Positions 1 through 11,632 of a stretch of DNA of 13,043 bases are shown piece after piece. The notes beneath the pieces are model-generated. The model was not told the DNA's origin, did not search any database, and was given only the letters and a program-made list of their open reading frames with translations. A program made the position numbers and the translations under genes. The stretch spans positions 1 through 13,043 of the forward strand of contig DAOVYA010000018.1 in NCBI GenBank assembly GCA_030635865.1, given 5' to 3'. Source of the DNA: Gammaproteobacteria bacterium. Its GTDB lineage: Bacteria; Pseudomonadota; Gammaproteobacteria; UBA9214. The stretch's first letter is position 1. Every line of letters starts with the position of its first letter.

Positions 1-3000
1 GCCGGCGATGATGTCAGGGATGATGGCAGCATGACGACCAGGAACGAAGCCTCCGCGGCATCATTTGCGGGTAATATTTCGATGCGCCAGGCTCCAGGTT
101 CCGTGTTTTTTCTTTTGCGCAATTGTTTTTCCAAGATCCCATCCTCGTCATAATTTGTTCCGTCCGCGAGGAAGGCAGCGTTGTTGCCACCAACAATTTG
201 TATCTGTGGTGTCTTTGGCAGCAGGATATGGCCCTCGAGATGGCCGCCTGAATGACCAGTTTTGCCATCGGGCATTTTTATAACTGAGAAACCATAATCG
301 GTACGAATTGGTGGCTCGGTAGTATGCAGCAGCCAACGCATCCTGAACTCTGGCTCAGTTGTGCGGACTTGATCAAAGATAACTACGACATCTTCCACAG
401 AATCATATCCAAACGTTCGCCAGAGGCGCTCCACCCGCCGTGTTCTCTGTGAAAATGTTCCCTGGCCGGAATCCGCGTTGGTATAGGCCGGCGTGATATC
501 TGACACTGCGACGACCAGACCGTCCCTGGCAAGGTGCTTTTCGATTTTTCCGGTGTGGTAGATCTCACGTTTGTGCCGCCATTCGGCGAGATCAAGGGGG
601 GCTGCCTCGATACCCCAGCCGGAACCGACACGTCGCTGACCACCGTCATTGGCGATCTGGCGTGGCTCTTTGTTCTCGCGGGGAGCGGGAACCGTATCAT
701 CCGGGTCCCGCACAGTGAGGGTGTTGTGGGCGATAGTCTGGTAGGCATAGTTCATGTGGTGATCAGAGCCGTATCCTTTACCCCCGCCATAGGCGCCGCT
801 GTCAATCGCGAGCGCTCCGCCCTTATAGATGGTGAATGCACCCTGGTCAAGGTGCGTATGTGACCAGTAATTGTCCCCGGCCTTGAAGCTGACGTAGGTC
901 GCATCGGGAGACCAGTCGCTGCGGGCGACAAGCATGCCGATGCCATCGAAATAGCGGGCAAGAGGCAATCGCGACATCGCATCAGGGTCACACAGGCTGT
1001 TATCCGGCAACGGACCCCAGGGCCAGGAGGTGGGTTCCATGCGCCTCGGGCAGCCGTTCAGGCTGTATGCGGCGGCATGCCGGTATTCGATGGCCAGTGG
1101 AACCCTGTCCGGCACGCGGTTGTTAAAATGAGCGCCGTCTCCCCAGCGATAATGCGTACCGTCCGGACGTGTCCTGTAGACAAGAAAATCCAGGAAACCT
1201 CGTATGCCGGGCTCAGTGCTGAACAGGTCTTCACCGGTCGCTTCGCGCCACATGGCCGGTACTTGATACACCGCCTGTCCAATGCCGATACCGATATACT
1301 CGCCGCCTTCGTGCCAGCCGCCATTCTGCCCCATGACCTGTCGCCAGACGGGCAATACCCGGTTTTGCAGAAGATCATAGGCGAACGCCATGACCGGGGC
1401 TCCCCGGCTGTCATCGTCGTACAGCGCGATGGCGCAGGCCATCAGGTCCTGCAACAGCGTGTTGTATAAAATGACATTGTATGGAGAAAGGCGCTCTTCC
1501 CGTATGAAGCGGATCAGATGTTCACAGCCATCCGCGACCTTTGAACGCAGCTGCGCCAGCTGCTCCGGATTCCACTCCTGGTACAGCCAGTCATAGGCCA
1601 GGACAACCTGCTTGACCTCCCCGCTGGCGCGTTTCCTGAATTCGATCGCGAGCAGCCGCTCGAGCAGCGAGTCGAGGTCCTGCGAGCCCCGCTCGATAAA
1701 GGCCATCGTGACGATAGCATCTGCCTTGCCATTCGCACCTGTTGCCCTGCGTGAAAGCTGTTTCAGGTAGGCCGGATTCTGTGAACGCAGTGTGACGATG
1801 TCTTCCGCTGATGGTGCCGGCAGACGCGGATGTTCGTGGTGAAACTGTGCCAGTGGCGCCGGGGGCAGGTCAGCCGGGTCCGGCAGTTCGTGCTCCAGCG
1901 ACCCCGGTGCTGCACCCAGTGAAATGATGGCTCCCAGAAGAAGGCTGGCAAGCGGCAGGGTCAGCAAAACTCCCGTGACCAGCAGTGCGGTTTCATGTCT
2001 TGTTGCCGAGGGCTCGATTGGATTCCGTGTTGCCGCTCGTGGCTGTTTTGTCGCAGCAAGTGTTGTTCGGTGACGCAGCAGGTGCCATGCGGTCAGCCAG
2101 GCAGCGGTTGCCACGATGACGTCAGTGATGTCTGGGTAGCGACCCGGAATGAACTGCTGCAGCAGGTTGACGGCAAGAACGACCAGAAACACGAGGGCGG
2201 CGCCTGCTGCCGGTGTATGGTAAAACCTGCCTCCCAGCCAGTTCCAGGCAAGATAGGCAAGCGCCACGAACGGCCAGCTGTTCTCGAGTATATCGGCGAG
2301 TCCCCGGGTAACGTTGCCGAGCTGGCCTGCAAATGGCATCCAGTTGAATGTCGCGGTCTGTGCGCCAGCCATACCGGCAGGCATGTTCAGGTTCTGGGCA
2401 ATGTAGGCGGTAATGATTGCGGCGGACGCCAGCAAAGAACCCCGCTTCGATTTTCCAGTGCCGAGCGTATACAGCAGAAACACTGCAGCAAGCAGAGCCA
2501 CCAGTGTTTCTGCTTCCAGTGACCGCTCCATGACAGGAACGGCCAGCAACACGATAAGGATCAGCAGTCCTGTGTAGGCATCCCGTATCCGGGATGCAGA
2601 GATTGCGGCAAGCATCACAAGCTGTCCGATGCCGAAGAAGGACAGTGTGTGGGCCGCTATGAGCTGCAAGGAAACCGACGCGGGGTTCTGCAGGGTCGCC
2701 CACAAGGGAGCGATACCCTGCCGAAGACTGCCGACGTCGATCGAGGGGACAAATGGGAAGGTCGACGCCAGTATCCACAATCCGGTCGCTGCGAGCGCGA
2801 CGTTGGGCCCCCGGCCGGGTTGAAACCAGGTGTGTCGCAAGGCCTGTAGCCGATTGCCCAAGGCGTGCTGCGGACTTGCTACCAGTGCCACGACGGCGCC
2901 GGCAGCGGTGCCCAGCATGTTAAGCCCGAGATCCAGGCTGGATGTGTTTCTGAACGGGATGGAATACTGCAGGTACTCCAGCGTCCAGCTCAGTAACAGT

Positions 3001-4226
3001 CCAGCAGCACTGACAAGGCCAATGCAGGATGCCGTAGAAAATCTCTTCCGCAAGGGTATTGCCAGGAGAAGTCCGAATGGCAGGTATACCACGGCGTTGC
3101 TGAAGATATCGGCCAGCGAGACATGTTCAGGCCAGGCGGCAAGCACCCCGGCAAACGTACCGCCCCGGGGAGCCTGCCAGGCGTCGAAGGGATACAGCGT
3201 CCCGTAGATAACAAGACAGCCATAGGCAATCGGGGTGGCGAAACCGGGCGGGAAACGGTAACGTCCGCGCCGCATTTTCTGTCCGCGCTGCGGGCTGACG
3301 GTTGTTTGTGGCACGGGCCGGTACGCCCAGAAAGGATACTGAAAAACGGCAACAAGCAGCACCATCCCGTAATGGAATGCCAGGAAACGACCCAGCAAAT
3401 CAAACCCGCTGGCCAGGTTGGTGCGGTCGGCGCTCAGCAAAAACTGCAGCGCGGAGAATACCTGTTTGTATTTATGGACCTCCTGTTCAAGACCTGGCCA
3501 CAGACAGCCATACGCAGCCGGGAGCGACAGGAGCACGAGCACCATCACAAACAGGATTGCCGGCCGTCCCGTCGCAAGCCTTACAGAAACCAGCGAGCCG
3601 GCCAGTCCGGTAGTGACCATCCACCTGGCAATAAACAGCGTTGCCTGCCAGCTTCCCCCGCCGGCCATCAGTTCGGTCAGGTTGTCCGTTGCGGCCTGTT
3701 CGACGATGATCCAGTGAGAGAGCGCCAGCAGAGGCACGGACAAGATGGCCCAGGAGACAAGCGTACGATATCGGTCTCCACGTTCTGTCCGGAGTAAAGC
3801 GGCTGTAAGGAGGCAGGAGCCGGCGAGCATGATGCCAGAGCCAATAACCAGTCCTGACAGCCGAAACAGGTATTCCCATTCCCATGGCCAGTCCAGAATC
3901 GGTGTTCCGAGGAGGTCATGGATGCTTTCGGCGGGCACGGCGCTGCGCAGGAACAGCCACAAGACGGCTGTCTCTGCAACCAGCAGCAGGGGTAGTATCA
4001 GGACCGCGCGGCTCGATAGTTGTACGAGTCGTGCAATCACTGCGGGGATTCCGAACAGCGCATACAGCGTGCATGACAGCAGCACGGCCTGCATGACCGG
4101 ATTGCGATCTGCCACGAGTTCCTGCAGGTTGTAGGGGATGCCCGGCAAGCTTTCGATGAGCCAGGTGGCGAAAGCCAGCCCCGCCACCGTCATGCCGACC
4201 ACGATGCCGATTCTTGCAGGCTTCAT
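1..4226 (-). CDS. VanZ-like membrane protein fused to heparinase II/III-family polysaccharide lyase (3' end outside window)
   Basis: Read on the minus strand from ATG at 4226, the frame stays open for about 1,408 codons to the window edge, so the C-terminus is missing. An in-frame stop lies upstream near 4339 with no other start between. Residues 1 to about 760 are polytopic membrane protein. Residues about 365-450 resemble a VanZ domain: NAVVYLPFGLLLA, then LEYLQY, then a SSLDLGLNMLGTAAG-type segment. From about 770 the chain is soluble. It contains a helical region with NGGWHEGGEY near 967 and a heparinase II/III-like beta domain with HTHLD at 1123-1127 (HxHxD, a family hallmark), followed by a GGGKGYGSDHH loop. 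Family members cleave uronate polysaccharides by beta-elimination. The likely role is a membrane-anchored lyase acting on secreted polysaccharide at the outer face of the inner membrane. Substrate is unknown. The start has no strong Shine-Dalgarno sequence. The single frame is seen directly; the domain calls rest on motif recognition. Confidence 0.87.
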   Translation of the reverse strand, partial: MKPARIGIVVGMTVAGLAFATWLIESLPGIPYNLQELVADRNPVMQAVLLSCTLYALFGIPAVIARLVQLSSRAVLILPLLLVAETAVLWLFLRSAVPAESIHDLLGTPILDWPWEWEYLFRLSGLVIGSGIMLAGSCLLTAALLRTERGDRYRTLVSWAILSVPLLALSHWIIVEQAATDNLTELMAGGGSWQATLFIARWMVTTGLAGSLVSVRLATGRPAILFVMVLVLLSLPAAYGCLWPGLEQEVHKYKQVFSALQFLLSADRTNLASGFDLLGRFLAFHYGMVLLVAVFQYPFWAYRPVPQTTVSPQRGQKMRRGRYRFPPGFATPIAYGCLVIYGTLYPFDAWQAPRGGTFAGVLAAWPEHVSLADIFSNAVVYLPFGLLLAIPLRKRFSTASCIGLVSAAGLLLSWTLEYLQYSIPFRNTSSLDLGLNMLGTAAGAVVALVASPQHALGNRLQALRHTWFQPGRGPNVALAATGLWILASTFPFVPSIDVGSLRQGIAPLWATLQNPASVSLQLIAAHTLSFFGIGQLVMLAAISASRIRDAYTGLLILIVLLAVPVMERSLEAETLVALLAAVFLLYTLGTGKSKRGSLLASAAIITAYIAQNLNMPAGMAGAQTATFNWMPFAGQLGNVTRGLADILENSWPFVALAYLAWNWLGGRFYHTPAAGAALVFLVVLAVNLLQQFIPGRYPDITDVIVATAAWLTAWHLLRHRTTLAATKQPRAATRNPIEPSATRHETALLVTGVLLTLPLASLLLGAIISLGAAPGSLEHELPDPADLPPAPLAQFHHEHPRLPAPSAEDIVTLRSQNPAYLKQLSRRATGANGKADAIVTMAFIERGSQDLDSLLERLLAIEFRKRASGEVKQVVLAYDWLYQEWNPEQLAQLRSKVADGCEHLIRFIREERLSPYNVILYNTLLQDLMACAIALYDDDSRGAPVMAFAYDLLQNRVLPVWRQVMGQNGGWHEGGEYIGIGIGQAVYQVPAMWREATGEDLFSTEPGIRGFLDFLVYRTRPDGTHYRWGDGAHFNNRVPDRVPLAIEYRHAAAYSLNGCPRRMEPTSWPWGPLPDNSLCDPDAMSRLPLARYFDGIGMLVARSDWSPDATYVSFKAGDNYWSHTHLDQGAFTIYKGGALAIDSGAYGGGKGYGSDHHMNYAYQTIAHNTLTVRDPDDTVPAPRENKEPRQIANDGGQRRVGSGWGIEAAPLDLAEWRHKREIYHTGKIEKHLARDGLVVAVSDITPAYTNADSGQGTFSQRTRRVERLWRTFGYDSVEDVVVIFDQVRTTEPEFRMRWLLHTTEPPIRTDYGFSVIKMPDGKTGHSGGHLEGHILLPKTPQIQIVGGNNAAFLADGTNYDEDGILEKQLRKRKNTEPGAWRIEILPANDAAEASFLVVMLPSSLTSSP

Positions 4227-5039
4227 GTGCGGGGTTTTTCCAGTGGGGCAGGGAGTCCAGTAACTGGAGACAAGCCGGCTGGCTCGTGTCTTGCCGGGGT
4301 GCCTTCGGCAGTTACAGGAGTGCGACCTGACATTATTGAGTTACTGATGACATTGAGCATGCCGGTACATCGACTCATTCAGGATATGACCATAATGATT
4401 TCAGGGCCGCAGGCACAGTTACCGGTGTAGCTTGCATCGATGTGGATTTACTGTACTCATGCAGCATGAGACTGATCTCATGATTTGTGAAAGCTTCCAA
4501 GGTTATGATGACTGCGGGGCTGCGGTATGGCAAGTTGCCAACAAGAAGCATCGCCTGCGGCATGTTCGCAGTAGAGGCAGGAATGAGATACTTTACTGTA
4601 TGCATTGCAGCCGGGTTGCGACGCCGTGACGGGCCGGGTTCCGGAAACCGCCATCATCAACAGGCGTCACCACACTGCAACACTGCTCGCTGGACAGGCC
4701 GGCTGCATCAACTGTGATTCTTCTGTCTTCGCAGGCAGGGGTCCTGTATATGCAGGAAAAGTTTTTGCCCTCAAGGGTGAGCAATGTCCAATACCTCGGT
4801 CCGGTATGCCGGTAGCATGCGGGGGTAGTTCATCTTGAAGTGGGCTACTATCAGCTCTGGCAATATTGGCACTTCTCCGGCTGGCAGGCTGTTCAATGCT
4901 GATTTTCAATGTCAAAATCAAGCATGAAGAACTGAGCTCCCGGTTTTTTCGGGTCTCTCCTGATATGAGTGGCTTGATGCCAGTGTATTTTCGACGACCG
5001 CTAAACGGTAATATTTTTTGATATTCAGATGGAGAAACT
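4227..5039. other. Divergent intergenic region without a convincing gene
   Basis: This stretch of about 0.8 kb separates the divergent lyase/VanZ gene and the protease gene. Several short open frames exist on both strands, but none has a recognisable domain, clear ribosome site or membrane/signal pattern. The region probably holds promoters for both neighbours. Visible structures are a nested palindrome at 4456-4482 and a short CCCG/CGGG hairpin with a T-rich loop at 4939-4953. The hairpin could be a weak terminator or nothing. Confidence 0.6.
4456..4482. promoter_or_regulatory. Nested palindromic operator-like site
   Basis: Three alternating half-sites are present: CTCATG (4456-4461), CATGAG (4465-4470) and TCTCATG (4476-4482). 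The first two form an inverted repeat with a 3-base spacer. The middle and last form a perfect 7-bp inverted repeat, CATGAGA-CTGA-TCTCATG. The middle half-site is shared by both palindromes. It lies in the divergent intergenic region, so a dimeric regulator could act on either neighbour. The binding protein is unknown. Confidence 0.4.
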
Positions 5040-5837
5040 ATGCTGCATTTTGAGGTAGGAAAATCTGATGGGCAAAGCCGGGGCCTGATATATCTGTTTG
5101 TGTACCTTATCATGCTGAGTGGTCCCTGCCTTGCAGACTTACCCGACACCATCGAACGCGCCTTGCCGAGCATCGTCGGAGTGGGCACGGTACAGATGAC
5201 AAGGCGCCCGCCGGCGAAGCTCACGGGCACCGGCTTTGTGGTTGGGGATGGCCGTCATGTCATCACCAATGCGCACGTGATCCCGGAGAAAATCGATGCC
5301 GCCAGGCTGGAGTACCTGGCGGTTTTTACCGGCAAGGGCAAAAATCCAAAGGTGCGCCAGGCGGTGAAGGTGAAGCAGGACAAGACCCATGACCTGGTGT
5401 TGCTCCGGTTCGAGGGTGAGCCGCTACCGGCGCTCTCGCTGGGGCAGTCCTCCCGGGTCAGGGTCGGCGAGGAGTATGTCTTTACCGGCTTCCCGCTTGG
5501 CGTCCTGTTTGGCCTCTACCCGGTCACCCATCGCGGCATGGTCAGTTCCATCACACCCATCGCCCTGCAGGCAAATGCGGCCAGCCAGTTGGATCCAACC
5601 CAGATCCGCCGCCTGCGCTCGCCGTACGATGTCTTTCAACTCGATGCCACGGCCTATCCGGGTAACAGCGGCAGCCCCCTGTATGATCCCGAGACCGGGC
5701 GCGTGGTCGGGACCATCAACAAGGTCTTCGTCAAGGAGGGCAGGGAAAACGTGCTGGCGAAACCCAGCGGGATCACCTATGCGATACCCGGCGAATACGC
5801 CCGACAACTCTTGAAGGCCGCCGGCCTGGCGCCATGA
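5040..5837 (+). CDS. Secreted trypsin-like serine protease, no PDZ domain
   Basis: This 265-residue protein starts at an ATG with a good ribosome site (GGAG a few bases upstream). Residues 1-32 form a Sec signal peptide, with basic and polar residues then a hydrophobic core of about residues 16-28, and probable cleavage after CLA. The rest is a chymotrypsin-fold protease of the HtrA/trypsin-2 type. The predicted triad is H79 in ITNAHVI, D118 in THDLVLLR and S210 in PGNSGSPL. The protein ends soon after the protease domain with YAIPGEYARQLL, so it lacks the PDZ domains of DegP and DegS. A periplasmic location is expected. Substrate is unknown. It could be a housekeeping quality-control protease or serve a nearby system; nothing in the sequence decides this. 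A 129-base gap follows before the next small gene. Confidence 0.9.
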   Translation: MLHFEVGKSDGQSRGLIYLFVYLIMLSGPCLADLPDTIERALPSIVGVGTVQMTRRPPAKLTGTGFVVGDGRHVITNAHVIPEKIDAARLEYLAVFTGKGKNPKVRQAVKVKQDKTHDLVLLRFEGEPLPALSLGQSSRVRVGEEYVFTGFPLGVLFGLYPVTHRGMVSSITPIALQANAASQLDPTQIRRLRSPYDVFQLDATAYPGNSGSPLYDPETGRVVGTINKVFVKEGRENVLAKPSGITYAIPGEYARQLLKAAGLAP

Positions 5838-6540: not shown

Positions 6541-7275
6541 ATGAATAATAAAGAGGAAGAACTAGGTCACAATCAGCCACCCGCAGTGGGTGAAACTGGT
6601 GGTGCAGAGGCAAGCTCGCCGAATCTGGAAACGCCGGAGGGTAACGGCCGTCGGCGCTTTGTAAAGGGCGTCCTTGCCGCGACACCGGTGATCATGAGCG
6701 TGGCCAGCCGGCCGGCCTGGGGTATCGGCGGTGGCAATTTCTGCTGGTCGGGGCTGCAGTCCGGCAATCTTTCCGGTCACGACCACAACGCCTGTTGTTT
6801 CGGTCGCAGTCCGGGGTATTACAAGAGCAATGTCTCTGCCTACGGTGATGGCCCTGGCTGGCCGCCCGGTTTTCTCCATGGCTGTCCTGATGTAAAAAGT
6901 AACGGGACCATCGATGCAACATGCAAGACTCTGTTCAAAGATCCAGAAGCCGGGATAATAAATGGCACGCAGTTCTCAAGCGTCTTTCCCAGCGGTAGTA
7001 TTGAGTATGATGGTTTGACGTTGATGCAGGTTCTTTGGCAGAAGTCGGGCAGCTTCGGCTTTCATGCCATAGCGGCCTATTTCAATTCACTGAATTTTCA
7101 GGGGTGTTACACCTGGGGGCCGGATGAGTTGAGGGAAATAATTATTGACATCCTGACGCTTGGGCATCATACCGATGGTGATATGATGTGGACCGAGGAT
7201 CAGATGAAGTGTCTGTTCGACGCCAGTTATCACACTGATCCTCATCACGATACACACGTTCCCGGTTGTTTCTAG
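6541..7275 (+). CDS. Tat-exported Cys/His-rich protein of unknown function, probable partner of the downstream PqqD/kinase/nucleotidyltransferase genes
   Basis: This 244-residue protein begins at ATG 6541. A TTG at 6511 would add 10 residues; neither start has a strong ribosome site. Residues 1-36 are an acidic, polar extension containing LGHNQPP. Then comes a twin-arginine motif, GRRRFVKG (36-43), a hydrophobic core (LAATPVIMSVA) and a probable cleavage region near SRPAWG. The mature part starts glycine-rich and has SGNLSGHD, an adjacent CC pair, and GRSPGYYK. The last resembles the PGYWK signature of a widespread class of secreted proteins of unknown function. A later FGFHAIAAYFNSL segment fits the same class. 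By my count the mature chain has eight cysteines and ten histidines, with a His-rich tail (YHTDPHHDTHVPGC). It is expected to be folded, perhaps metal-bound or disulfide-bonded, in the periplasm or beyond. It is first in a cluster with three genes suggestive of peptide modification, 32 bases upstream of the PqqD-like gene. Function is unknown. Confidence 0.82.
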   Translation: MNNKEEELGHNQPPAVGETGGAEASSPNLETPEGNGRRRFVKGVLAATPVIMSVASRPAWGIGGGNFCWSGLQSGNLSGHDHNACCFGRSPGYYKSNVSAYGDGPGWPPGFLHGCPDVKSNGTIDATCKTLFKDPEAGIINGTQFSSVFPSGSIEYDGLTLMQVLWQKSGSFGFHAIAAYFNSLNFQGCYTWGPDELREIIIDILTLGHHTDGDMMWTEDQMKCLFDASYHTDPHHDTHVPGCF

Positions 7276-7307
7276 GTCTGACCGGCATTCAGACCGAGGC
7301 TAGCGCG

Positions 7308-7598
7308 ATGCGGGAACGCGGCTGGCAACTATCACGCGGTCTCCAGTTTCATATCAGTCGTTGGGATAACTCTGTTGTGCTCTATGAGGGGACTTCAGGG
7401 AGTTCCAGCCTGTTGGATCCGCTATCCTTTGAAGTCTTCCAGCTCTTCCAGAAGGCCGACGGGCCGTTAACGGTATCAGGCATTGGTGCGACACTCTCGG
7501 AAAATGGCGAAGCGGAAGACCGTGATGCTTTGCGCAGTGACATCCAGCGGATTGTATATTATCTTGGGCGCCAGGAATTTCTGGATCAGACCCGCTAA
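7308..7598 (+). CDS. PqqD-like (RRE-type) peptide-binding protein, HPr-rel-A type
   Basis: This is a 96-residue protein. I chose ATG 7308 over the upstream TTG at 7266 because GAGG lies 8 bases before the ATG and the TTG would overlap the preceding gene. The sequence has the PqqD layout: a WD pair early (W19-D20), VVLYEGTSGSSSLLDPLSFEVFQLF (residues 23-47, the strand-strand-helix part), then helices ending in a bulky-basic tail. PqqD-like domains bind the leader of a peptide or protein and present it to a modifying enzyme. Its stop (7596-7598) abuts the GTG of the kinase, so translation is likely coupled. The match to the family called HPr-rel-A system PqqD family protein is from memory of sequence pattern. 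It most likely recognises the Tat protein upstream or a substrate elsewhere. Confidence 0.8.
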   Translation: MRERGWQLSRGLQFHISRWDNSVVLYEGTSGSSSLLDPLSFEVFQLFQKADGPLTVSGIGATLSENGEAEDRDALRSDIQRIVYYLGRQEFLDQTR

Positions 7599-8513
7599 GT
7601 GACTGTCGCCTCCCTATCGATTTCCGAACTTCGGTCCCACCTGTCTTCCGCATCTGGCCTGGGCCTGAGGGTAGGACCCTTTAGTCTGCGTATCCGCTCA
7701 CCGCTTGCTGCGATTGCCACGTCGGTGCACCGGATGTATGCCGGTTTCGATATCGTCGAAGACATGCCGTTCGCGGACTTTCACGTCAGCGTAAACCGTC
7801 CTGCAAATATCCGTCGCTGGCTGCGCCCGCAGGTCCAGTTCTACCTGGACGGTATGGAACCCTTCAAGCCGCTGCCGTTGCCGCAGGCCTATGCCATGCT
7901 GGAGTGGGGGTTGAACTGGTGCATTTCCAATTTCAGCAACCAATACCTGATTATCCACGCAGGGGTACTCGCCCGGGGCAACCGGGCCGTGGTGATGCCC
8001 GCGCCGCCGGGGTCGGGGAAAAGCACGCTGTGTGCGGGTCTGGTCAGCCGTGGCTGGCGCCTGCTGTCCGATGAATTGACCTTGATCGATACTTGTACGG
8101 GACTGGTCCAGCCGCTCCCGCGGCCGATCAATTTGAAGAATGAGTCAATCGAGGTGATGCGGCGTTTTGCCCCGGATGTGGTACTGGGGGAGGTGGCCCA
8201 CGATACCGCCAAGGGGACTGTTGCCCATATGCAGCCGCCACAGGGGAGTGTGGCGACAATGGGGGTGCCGGCCAGGCCGGCCATGGTGGTTTTCCCGCAG
8301 TACGCTGCGGGCGCAGCGGCCACCCTGGAAAGGGAGGACAGGGGGGTTGCCTATATGGCGTTGGCCGAGAACAGTTTCAACTACAGCCTGCTCGGGACGC
8401 GTGGCTTCGAGGTACTCAAGGCGTTTATTGACCAGTCAGACTGCTACCGTTTCAGCTACGCTGACCTGGATAAGGCGGTCACTGTCTTCGATGAGCTGAT
8501 GGCGGCGCGCTGA
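7599..8513 (+). CDS. HprK-related kinase (HPr-rel-A type)
   Basis: This 304-residue protein starts at GTG 7599, directly after the stop of the PqqD-like gene. The centre aligns by eye with the catalytic core of HPr kinase/phosphorylase. It has IIHAGVLARG with H120 in the place of the HprK catalytic histidine, a P-loop APPGSGKST (135-143), and RGWRLLSDELTLID (151-164). There D158-E159 take the place of the ADD pair in HprK. It lacks the HprK signature stretch; LPRPINLKNESI follows instead, which I recognise from HprK-related kinase A proteins. The first 110 residues are family-specific. True HprK phosphorylates a serine of HPr, and an HprK-like kinase in lasso-peptide clusters phosphorylates the precursor peptide. 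By analogy this enzyme may phosphorylate a substrate delivered by the PqqD-like protein. The substrate is unknown. The stop is 4 bases before the nucleotidyltransferase start. Confidence 0.87.
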   Translation: MTVASLSISELRSHLSSASGLGLRVGPFSLRIRSPLAAIATSVHRMYAGFDIVEDMPFADFHVSVNRPANIRRWLRPQVQFYLDGMEPFKPLPLPQAYAMLEWGLNWCISNFSNQYLIIHAGVLARGNRAVVMPAPPGSGKSTLCAGLVSRGWRLLSDELTLIDTCTGLVQPLPRPINLKNESIEVMRRFAPDVVLGEVAHDTAKGTVAHMQPPQGSVATMGVPARPAMVVFPQYAAGAAATLEREDRGVAYMALAENSFNYSLLGTRGFEVLKAFIDQSDCYRFSYADLDKAVTVFDELMAAR

Positions 8514-8517
8514 TTCC

Positions 8518-9633
8518 ATGGCGAGCCTGTTGGTCAGCGTGTTACGGGACCCGGGGCAGGTTACCCGGCTGTCGCTGGAAGAGTGGGACCTGCTTGTCCG
8601 CCAGGCGCGCCGGACGAACCTGCTGGCGCGCCTGGCTATTGTTCTGGATGAACATGGCCGGTTTGCCGCTATTCCTGAACAGCCCAGGCGGCACCTGGAC
8701 TCCGTGCGGCTGCTCGCCGCTAAACAGCACCGGGACATACGCTGGGAGGTGCGCTCCATCCGGCGCGCCCTGAGGGGGACGGCCATCCCGGTGATCCTGC
8801 TGAAAGGCGCTGCCTATGTTATGGAAGGGTTGTCTGCGGCCAGGGGGCGGCTTGTCTCTGATCTGGATATTCTCGTGCCGCGCGACGACCTCCCGGACAC
8901 GGAGCAGGCGTTGATGATTGCCGGCTGGCAAAGCAGCCACCTTGATAAGCGGGACCAGCGCTATTACCGGAAATGGATGCATGAGCTGCCGCCGCTGAAA
9001 CACATGCGCAGGTTGAGTGTCCTGGACGTACACCACACCCTGGTACCATTGACCTCCCGCTACCATTTCGATGCGACGCCCTTGTTTACAGACGCCAGGG
9101 TTCTGGAAAAGGCGGCCACACCTGTCGATTCCGACCTGCTGGTACTGTCACGTGAGGATATGGTGATACACAGTGCCGTTCACCTGTTCTGTGATGGTGA
9201 GTTCGATCACGGCCTGCGTGATCTGGCGGATCTGGATGACTTGGTCCGGGAGTTTTCACAGACTGCCGGTTTTTGGGAGGCGCTTCAAGGCCGTGCGCGG
9301 ACGCTGCGGCTGGGCCGGCCCGTTTTCTATGCAATGCGTTATCTCCAGCGCATCCTCGGAACCCCGGTTCCTGAGGCATTGCGGGACCCACGGGTGATGG
9401 GTGGGCCGAACCGGTTGATTCAAGGTGTCATGGATTTTCTGTTCATGCGCGCCCTGGAACCTGACCATCCCAGTTGCGATCGCAGCTTCACGGCTTTGGC
9501 ACGCTGGGTATTATATGTCAGGGCCCACTATCTGCGGATGCCCTTGCACCTGTTGCTCCCGCATCTGCTGGGTAAGGTCCTGCGCCGCGACGAATCACCG
9601 CTTGCCGTTGCGGTACGTAATCCCGGCGAGTAG
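8518..9633 (+). CDS. Nucleotidyltransferase family protein (PF14907-like)
   Basis: This 371-residue protein starts with ATG 4 bases after the kinase stop, which indicates one operon. It matches the uncharacterised nucleotidyltransferase family by its ordered motifs: VILLKGAAY (92-100), then RLVSDLDILVPRDDL (111-125) with the metal-binding pair D115 and D117, and VLDVHHTL (168-175) with a candidate third acidic residue D170. A later AVHLFCDGEFDHGLRDLADLDDL segment is typical of this family. Such enzymes would transfer a nucleotide or related group, but the acceptor is not known to me. Relatives occur beside PqqD-like and HprK-like genes in HPr-rel-A and some lasso-peptide loci. Its position suggests it acts on the same substrate as the kinase. 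It ends 19 bases before the convergent ATPase gene, with no obvious terminator between. Confidence 0.87.
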   Translation: MASLLVSVLRDPGQVTRLSLEEWDLLVRQARRTNLLARLAIVLDEHGRFAAIPEQPRRHLDSVRLLAAKQHRDIRWEVRSIRRALRGTAIPVILLKGAAYVMEGLSAARGRLVSDLDILVPRDDLPDTEQALMIAGWQSSHLDKRDQRYYRKWMHELPPLKHMRRLSVLDVHHTLVPLTSRYHFDATPLFTDARVLEKAATPVDSDLLVLSREDMVIHSAVHLFCDGEFDHGLRDLADLDDLVREFSQTAGFWEALQGRARTLRLGRPVFYAMRYLQRILGTPVPEALRDPRVMGGPNRLIQGVMDFLFMRALEPDHPSCDRSFTALARWVLYVRAHYLRMPLHLLLPHLLGKVLRRDESPLAVAVRNPGE

Positions 9634-9652: not shown

Positions 9653-11632
9653 TCACTTTTCCTGGGCTCGCCTGATGTAAATCTCGACGCGACGCTTCAG
9701 GCCGGGGTTATAGCTGGTTGAGTGTTCCAGCCTGGTATCGTGATCACCGCGTCCTTCGGATTGAATGCTTGAATCGGTGAGGCCCTGGTTGACGAGGTAA
9801 TCAACGACCGCCTTTGCCCTGAGTTGTGAAAGATGCAAGTTGTATTCGGCTGCTCCGGAAGAGTCGGCATGTCCCACGACCTGAATAGTCAGTTTGTCAC
9901 GATTGCGCAGGATGTCAGCCAGTTTCTCAAGTGCGGGACGCAGGTCATCCCTTATCCGGGTACTGTCAAAAGAAAATACCCCGTTACCACTGAGGTTAAC
10001 CCTGAGGATATCGTCGTCCATTCGTTCAACCAGCAGCCCGTTTCGCTGTAGTTCTTCTTCCAGTTGCAAGGGGTTGGCCTGCGGGAGATCCGGTTCCTGT
10101 ACAGCTATTTCAATTTCTGCTGTGTCAGTTCCCGGTTCATGACTCACCGGAGGTGATTCGTGAGCCACGGTTCCCTTGAGGTTAACCTTGAGGGTATCGT
10201 CGTCCATTCGTTCAACCAGCAGCCTGTTTTGCTGCAGTTCTTCTTCCAGTTGCAACGGGTTGGCCTGCGGGAGATCCGGTTCCTGTACAGCTATTTCAAT
10301 TTCTGCTGCGTCAGTTCCCGGTTCATGACTCACCGGAGGTGATTCGCGAACCACAGTTCCCTTGCCCATATCCTCATCGGGTTCAGTGATGTCAGGTGAT
10401 GATTCCCCGGTCGCAATACTGACACCCTTTTGTATGCCGGAATGAACCCATGCCATCAGGTTCTTTCCAGTCAGCCAGGTCGATGCAGGGTTTGTTGTAT
10501 ACAGCACTGCGAGTGCCAGACCCGTAATCAGCCCGGTTAGTACCGGCAGCCACCATGAACTCCGCTTTCGCGTCTTCTTTTTTTCGGGTTCTGCCTGATC
10601 CAGCGGTCTTTCCTGTTCCCTGGCGGTGACCTGTTCGGGGGGTGTGTCTGAAGATGGTGCAGTTTCCTGTCGGGCTTTTGTGGTTGGCGGCATGGGTTGC
10701 GGCACTCTTTTCGGCGCAGCCGGGGGCGATTGGCGAGCGGGCTCTTCTTCGTAGGTTTCCTGATGCTGGTCTGCTGGCCAAGGAACTGCTGTAGCCATTC
10801 CCGCCGTTTCCATGGGCATCAAGAACTCCTGACGGAGCTCCTCGACAACAATCATTACGTCCGGTATTCCAAGCCGGTGTTTTTCCTCGATACTGCCATG
10901 CAGGAAAAGACGGCTGCAGATCTGGTTTATCTGTCGTGGTATGCCCTGACTGTATTGCTGGATCATGGCATAGGCCTCTTTGCTGATCAGCGGGTCACCC
11001 GTCCATGCCACACGGCGAAGCCGATGTTTGATATATGCCTCGGTGTCATGGCGATCAAGGGACTCGAGATGCGTCGCGGCAATCATGCGTTGACGTAACG
11101 GCTCCATGGAAGGCGCATCCACCATGTTTCGCAATTGCTCCTGGCCAATCAGGAATACTTGCAATAATGGCTGGCCGCCAGCTTGTATGTTGGTCAGCAG
11201 GCGGAGTTCTTCAAGCGCATCCTCAGCCATGTCCTGGGCTTCGTCAACAATCAGCAGGGGGCGTCGTCCCTGCTGAAATTGCTGTTTCAGGAAGCGGTCC
11301 AGTCGTACCAGCACATCAACCTTGTCTTCACCCCCGGGATCCAGATTGAACGAGTAGGCCACCAGGCGGAGCAGATCATCTGCTTTCATCTGTGTAGTTA
11401 CAAGGCTGGCAACTATTGCCTGCTCTGGTTTGAGCGTTCGCAGCAGATCATGGATCAGGGTTGTCTTGCCTGTTCCCGGGCGGCCCGTAATCATGATAAA
11501 TCCCTCGGCGCGCTGGAAGGCGTGGTGCATGTAGGTCATCGCCTTGCGGTAGGTCCGGTGCTGGTAGCAAAATCGGGGATCCGGACTTAAGCGGAAGGGT
11601 TCGGCGCTTAACTGATAGAAGGTTTCATGCAT
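9653..11632 (-). CDS. ExeA-like AAA ATPase with transmembrane helix and C-terminal OmpA-like domain
   Basis: This 659-residue protein is read from ATG 11632 on the minus strand. Residues 1 to about 275 are an ExeA/GspA-type ATPase. The signs are the start FYQLSAEPFRLSPDPRF, Walker A GRPGTGKT (50-57), Walker B LLIVDEAQD (126-134), LIGQEQLR and GIPRQINQIC. The same fold occurs in the ATPase of exosortase (XrtA) loci. A Pro/Gln-rich charged linker follows, then one membrane helix at about 360-383 (WWLPVLTGLITGLALAVLY). Next are two tandem 62-residue repeats (424-485 and 486-547). The C-terminus (about 548-655) is an OmpA-like peptidoglycan-binding domain. D590 in GHAD and R605 in LSQLRA have the same 15-residue spacing as the diaminopimelate-binding pair of E. 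coli OmpA. Classical ExeA carries a PG_binding_1 domain instead. Likely role: an inner-membrane ATPase that grips the cell wall for assembly or export of an envelope complex. No type II secretion genes are nearby. Confidence 0.9.
   Translation of the reverse strand: MHETFYQLSAEPFRLSPDPRFCYQHRTYRKAMTYMHHAFQRAEGFIMITGRPGTGKTTLIHDLLRTLKPEQAIVASLVTTQMKADDLLRLVAYSFNLDPGGEDKVDVLVRLDRFLKQQFQQGRRPLLIVDEAQDMAEDALEELRLLTNIQAGGQPLLQVFLIGQEQLRNMVDAPSMEPLRQRMIAATHLESLDRHDTEAYIKHRLRRVAWTGDPLISKEAYAMIQQYSQGIPRQINQICSRLFLHGSIEEKHRLGIPDVMIVVEELRQEFLMPMETAGMATAVPWPADQHQETYEEEPARQSPPAAPKRVPQPMPPTTKARQETAPSSDTPPEQVTAREQERPLDQAEPEKKKTRKRSSWWLPVLTGLITGLALAVLYTTNPASTWLTGKNLMAWVHSGIQKGVSIATGESSPDITEPDEDMGKGTVVRESPPVSHEPGTDAAEIEIAVQEPDLPQANPLQLEEELQQNRLLVERMDDDTLKVNLKGTVAHESPPVSHEPGTDTAEIEIAVQEPDLPQANPLQLEEELQRNGLLVERMDDDILRVNLSGNGVFSFDSTRIRDDLRPALEKLADILRNRDKLTIQVVGHADSSGAAEYNLHLSQLRAKAVVDYLVNQGLTDSSIQSEGRGDHDTRLEHSTSYNPGLKRRVEIYIRRAQEK
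9992..10363 (-). repeat. Two-copy in-frame tandem duplication of 186 bp
   Basis: Copy A spans 9992-10177 and copy B 10178-10363, directly adjacent. By my alignment they have equal length with about 10 base differences (roughly 95% identity) and no gaps. Each encodes 62 residues of the ExeA/OmpA protein's periplasmic linker, with motifs SPPVSHEPGTD, AEIEIAVQEPDLPQANP, LQLEEELQ and LLVERMDDD. The length is divisible by three, so the frame is kept. High identity points to a recent duplication or to gene conversion between copies. Confidence 0.95.

Follow-up and report, generated by a model that had tools for sequence, protein, structure and literature searches.

The described pathways closest to the locus studied here make phosphorylated products of ribosomally synthesized and post-translationally modified peptide (RiPP) type. 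Linear polyphosphorylated peptides (LPPs) of Bacillota are encoded by the genes lppA-K-B-S-D-N; according to the accessible portion of the source, their loci combine a RiPP recognition element (RRE), an HprK-like kinase and an NTP transferase, often in polysaccharide regions, LppK phosphorylates Ser3 of the core, deletion of lppN has no visible effect, and [Y/W]xxPx[L/V/I/F/A] is the motif of lasso and LPP leaders (PMC13381572). For pseudomycoidin, knock-outs show that PsmK is needed for phosphorylation and PsmN for the hexoses, and the review, in its available part, leaves open whether PsmN is itself the sugar-transferring enzyme (PMC9266682). A third source describes RiPPs with a Sec signal as uncommon and points out that their export must not happen too early (PMC12452194). 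Here we analyse a stretch of 13,043 nucleotides from a gammaproteobacterium (contig DAOVYA010000018.1 of assembly GCA_030635865.1; hereafter the window), in which the gene of a putative precursor with a leader like a twin-arginine translocation (Tat) signal precedes a trio of genes for a PqqD-like protein, an HprK-related kinase and a nucleotidyltransferase. With some reserve, we favour the reading that the product of this cluster is a secreted phosphoprotein, formed along a RiPP-like route.

The four genes run in the same direction on the forward strand with intergenic spacings of 32, 0 and 4 bases, and rechecking the open reading frames (ORFs) confirmed the positions and spacing given in the initial annotation of this stretch. 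The precursor, or putative substrate (6541–7275, +), was characterized from 17 database relatives and an AlphaFold2 model as a Tat-like leader with R37–R39, a serine arm with C68, S70, S74 and S78, and a predicted helical mature domain. Its leader (6649–6723, +) contains the twin arginine, a hydrophobic region with ATPVIMSV and the c-region ASRPAWG. The arm CWSGLQSGNLS (6742–6774, +), where the predicted local distance difference test score (pLDDT) is about 58–79, holds S70, S74 and S78, proposed as phospho-acceptors on the basis of conservation. The PqqD-like protein (7308–7598, +) scores 24.2 bits against TIGR04353, under the cutoff of 35. The kinase (7599–8513, +) is HprK_rel_A, with 396.7 bits to TIGR04352 against a cutoff of 200, and by the sequence of this kinase the locus is assigned to the HPr-rel-A system. 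The fourth gene (8518–9633, +) encodes an NTP_transf_5 protein with the motif GRxxSDxD (PF14907, 186.3 bits); such a gene beside the kinase and the PqqD protein is what we take to complete the HPr-rel-A trio.

The association of the precursor with the trio is seen from both sides. A search with the precursor only, as a family of 18 sequences against 369 genomes of the class, matched 38 genomes. We fetched the locus of the best match in 30 of these, the other eight being weak matches, and the kinase adjoins the precursor in all 30, a set that includes the window's own locus and two genomes already known through the kinase. Homologs of the Tat protein are therefore enriched near HprK-related kinase A, as had been proposed. 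Searching genome contigs for the kinase gave at least 70 loci, 68 of them real relatives. A precursor was found in 65 of the 68, by profile or manual pick, and a cut C-terminal fragment in L112, judged by eye, raises the loci with a whole or cut precursor to 66. L106 begins near a contig edge and has no precursor in the stretch; L125, from a Phycisphaeraceae metagenome-assembled genome, is the only kinase locus with room for a precursor in which none was seen. Directly upstream of the trio in L125 lies an ORF that looks transposase-like by eye (4816–5655, +). The transferase is present in 68 of 68 loci, on the other strand in L128, and a PqqD-like ORF in 61, as judged with a profile built from 38 of the same loci. 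The four-gene arrangement is thus confirmed as real and far beyond chance, and we hold it practically certain that the precursor is linked to the trio.

The same loci bear on the possibility that the genes are unrelated and merely form an ordinary conserved operon, preserved through descent or horizontal transfer. The restriction of 67 of the 68 kinase loci to Pseudomonadota would fit such an origin. However, kinases only 35–40% identical to that of the window are still accompanied by a precursor (for example in L126, L129, L133 and L134), gene order shifts without separation, with the precursor on the opposite side of the trio in L086 and L091 and doubled in L091 and L129, and different cores share one leader, as described below. 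An operon of this kind seems to us very improbable.

The window precursor has the features of a Tat signal: the segment GRRRFVKG, a run of hydrophobic residues and a c-region that contains a basic residue. Of the 98 distinct precursors whose leader was usable, 96 have RR and 2 have KR at the twin arginine; we separated these proteins, partly by eye, into type 1 (86, including that of the window) and type 2 (12). In one alignment of the 86 type-1 proteins, R38 and S74 are conserved in all 86, S70 in 85, R37 and C68 in 83 each, N182 in 81 and S78 in 74, and in a picked set of 47 precursors the invariant residues are R38, S70 and S74. Two patterns picked after viewing the sequences, C-x(1-3)-S just after the leader and SxxxS, occur in 78 and 86 of the 86 type-1 proteins, respectively, versus 6.1 and 18.5 in shuffles. 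The substrate had initially been described as Cys/His-rich; one cysteine, C68, is indeed conserved together with two serines after the leader, but richness in histidine is not a conserved feature. No Pfam model matched any of 47 members of the precursor family, including that of the window, at E ≤ 0.001, and the mature domain of the window precursor gave no fold match in the PDB. The AlphaFold2 model of this precursor is confident at about residues 85–230 and poor in the leader and serine arm; the conserved serines sit in a low-confidence, probably flexible arm between leader and folded domain. Such a location gives no indication that the protein is modified while folded, as had been supposed.

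The proposal that the PqqD-like protein is an RRE is supported by its predicted fold. Its AlphaFold2 model, made with 39 sequences, has a mean pLDDT of 94.3, and the best PDB match by Foldseek is TbiB1, a lasso RRE, in complex with its leader (5v1v, E 1.5e-5), with further matches to PqqD (5sxy, E 6e-4) and another lasso B1 protein (6jx3, E 2.1e-3). Catalytic residues are intact in both enzymes: H120, K141, D158 and E159 are identical in 68 of 68 kinases, and K96, G97, R111, D115, D117, D170, H172, H173 and H218 in 68 of 68 transferases. In two sphingomonad HprK-like proteins (L137, 5521–6642, +; L138, 5392–6573, +) the N-terminal part appears PqqD-like by eye, a possible RRE–kinase fusion; one scan of the L137 kinase gave no match to a PqqD model.

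All 12 type-2 proteins end in SC[WLYF]xS. To compare their leaders with those of type 1, we used a profile built from 43 type-1 leaders, half of that type, and 22 Tat signals from relatives as controls, about nine of which are near-copies. Of the held-out type-1 leaders, 41 of 43 outscore the best of these controls, as do 12 of 12 type-2 leaders. The type-2 loci were found through the kinase, and the likeness of their leaders was therefore not selected for. Precursors in this system share one Tat-like leader but have different cores, and the combination by which RiPPs are recognized is present: the cores vary behind a conserved leader, and there is a dedicated RRE, assigned by predicted fold. 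In a tree of the 68 loci based on the kinase only, the eight type-2 loci cluster together with a support of 97/76; their distribution needs 1 change, a number as low as this being reached in 0 of 500 shuffles. Shared descent of the operon may contribute to the grouping.

The weak matches of the precursor search led to short Tat peptides of 56–149 residues, often several per genome. Twelve of these, when aligned, keep R8, R9, F11, Y17, A19, P20, T24, L25, A27, A32, G36 and S37. A database search with the short peptides returned 1218 proteins at E ≤ 0.001; of the 120 matches listed, none contains a Pfam domain and 118 have GS within residues 21–60. The motif [YWF]xxPx[ILVMFA] is present in 113 of the 113 leaders that could be cut out, all of which outscore the Tat controls, and this YxxP motif matches that of lasso and LPP leaders. 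Among 11 genomes with short-peptide matches at E<1e-8, seven (G016, G044, G058, G123, G205, G305 and G338) have an HprK-like kinase in the stretches examined, and in G306 a kinase of the HprK_A kind lies on a different contig. Four kinases associated with short peptides were scanned and gave 69–85 bits to TIGR04352, below its cutoff; PqqD-like or NTP_transf_5 genes lie beside some of the kinases. Examples of short peptides with both YxxP and GS are found in L179 (9653–10885, –), L184 (4576–6391, +) and L185 (10640–11516, +). One peptide of 71 residues is named nitrous oxide reductase by one source, which its length does not suggest.

With the leader as the part common to different cores, the trio might instead be a Tat proofreading device, in which the RRE would shield the signal while phosphorylation within the leader, at the T or S of xTL, controls release, with no lasting mark left on the exported protein. 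T24 and L25 of A5 are invariant in the 12 short peptides, and masking of the signal until modification has been discussed for Sec-signal RiPPs in the accessible part of one source (PMC12452194). However, S70 and S74, which lie outside the leader, are the best-conserved residues besides R38, the C-terminal SCxxS of type 2 would go unexplained and the transferase would be left without a role. We consider a proofreading device improbable.

From the gene linkage, the one leader on different cores, the conserved serines and the intact catalytic residues, we infer the following route to a secreted phosphoprotein. The Tat signal of the precursor would double as the leader bound by the RRE, that is, by the PqqD-like protein. 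The HprK-like kinase would then phosphorylate one or more serines adjacent to the leader (S70, S74 and S78 in the window) or, in type-2 proteins, probably one close to the C-terminus; these targets are expected by analogy with LppK and PsmK. That the kinase acts on the precursor is likely, and for the named serines as its targets we see an even chance. The NTP_transf_5 protein might next add a nucleotide or sugar to the phosphate, a step that we put forward tentatively and would not rely on. The product would leave by the Tat pathway, with the leader removed by signal peptidase. An RRE seated on the Tat signal would also meet the need to avoid premature export.

Several observations weigh against this route: (i) At E ≤ 1 the window precursor has no hit among the NCBIfam and Pfam models, Tat models included. 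(ii) The YxxP-type leader motif occurs in 0 of 86 type-1 and 1 of 12 type-2 leaders; the window leader reads ATPVI there, with P-x-I but no Y or W at –3, and because this motif is absent, binding of the RRE to the window leader is proposed by analogy. (iii) Five type-2-like precursors found later (L171, L178, L199, L203 and L206) do not end exactly in SC[WLYF]xS; four of them keep C-x-x-S near the end and one has no cysteine there. (iv) A second strong type-1 copy on contig 20 of G316 (L217, – strand) has no kinase within the 4 kb examined; this genome has a complete precursor–kinase pair on another contig, by which the lone copy is perhaps served in trans. (v) Three of the 11 short-peptide genomes (G070, G188 and G373) have no HprK-like kinase in the stretches examined, and the leader likeness of the short peptides is partly selected, these having been found through the type-1 profile. 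(vi) The linkage, the kinase tree and the leader likeness could each be due in part to common descent of the operon. (vii) The transferase step is weakened by the lppN deletion, which changed nothing visible. (viii) tatC was not found in the window's own genome, which is 83% complete, nor in the kinase-bearing G011; within the genus, 10 of 13 genomes have it, including 4 of the 4 most complete.

The window locus lies in an exopolysaccharide-type setting. Downstream is an XrtA/PEP-CTERM-type ATPase fused to an OmpA domain (9653–11632, –; TIGR03015 at 306 bits, below the cutoff of 324.5; OmpA, PF00691), in whose translation a near-duplicate internal stretch is visible, and on the other side a large protein with VanZ and heparinase II/III-like parts, assigned by family scan, runs off the window (3–4226, –). 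A trypsin-like serine protease (5040–5837, +; PF13365, 93.7 bits) is a frequent but optional neighbour, with homologs in 36 of 104 loci, many of these stretches being short; it could process the exported protein. At score thresholds of our own choosing and with no control group, XrtA/PEP-CTERM genes were counted in the stretches of 25 of the 68 kinase loci, or 28 if VanZ/heparinase-like genes are included. These counts, together with nucleotide-sugar enzymes near some loci, would suit a trio that modifies a polysaccharide or small molecule of the neighbouring exopolysaccharide locus, the Tat protein being an outside partner and not a substrate. Against this, none of the XrtA, VanZ or heparinase-like genes is found in the stretches of 40 of the 68 loci, the predicted RRE fold implies a peptide ligand, and the precursor stays with the trio where it lies on the other side or is doubled, all of which makes a polysaccharide or small-molecule substrate quite improbable in our judgement.

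If this route holds, a RiPP-type pathway would employ a Tat signal as its leader and modify a protein that has a folded domain. The HPr-rel-A genes would thereby gain a substrate and a likely target residue; no paper on these genes was found in an open-access collection, which lacks most subscription papers. The route also raises the idea that an RRE might delay export until a phosphate has been attached. A further extrapolation, speculative and on balance rather unlikely, is that Proteobacteria harbour an extensive, unrecognised class of secreted phosphopeptides and phosphoproteins whose Tat signal is also the leader for the RRE. The RRE would shield this signal until the kinase, and the transferase where it acts, have done their work, and export would be gated by modification. 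In such a class, a sugar- or nucleotide-phosphate on the exported serine might link the protein to exopolysaccharide. The class would span type 1, with its leader-adjacent serine, type 2, with its C-terminal SCxxS, and perhaps at least 1000 short peptides (1218 matches, 120 of them seen).

Compared with the described systems, LPP loci share with the window a precursor, a discrete RRE, an HprK-like kinase and an NTP transferase, and lack a cyclase. Ser3, the residue that LppK phosphorylates, comes soon after the leader, as do the arm serines here, and a polysaccharide setting is frequent there and present here. LPP loci differ in an SpI-like leader peptidase, an MsbA-like exporter and precursors of 35–200 residues, with Tat unmentioned in the accessible portion of the source (PMC13381572), whereas the leader of the window precursor is Tat-like and its mature part, about 180 residues long, includes a folded domain. 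A scan of nine window proteins, not extended to the rest of the genome, revealed neither an SpI-like leader peptidase nor an MsbA-like exporter. Paeninodin and pseudomycoidin (PadeK, PsmK, PsmN) share an HprK-like kinase acting on serine, a nucleotidyltransferase-type partner and an RRE, as far as the available text of the review goes (PMC9266682). No macrolactam cyclase or B2 protease was found among the nine proteins, and the locus is not a lasso locus. The initial annotation was right that a lasso cyclase and a radical SAM enzyme are missing, neither being present among the same nine proteins. The trio has a precedent in phosphopeptide pathways such as those of LPP and pseudomycoidin, to which it is close in kind. 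Bufferins and other MNIO RiPPs have precursors of RiPP type that likewise bear an export signal, which probably takes part in recognition; they differ in using Sec, not Tat, and in MNIO chemistry, mostly on cysteine (PMC12452194). The HPr-rel-A model descriptions (TIGR04352 and TIGR04353) name the kinase and the PqqD protein, to which a precursor with a Tat leader is added here. The window locus is thus best called a variant of the phosphorylated RiPP pathways, distinct from both LPP and lasso systems.

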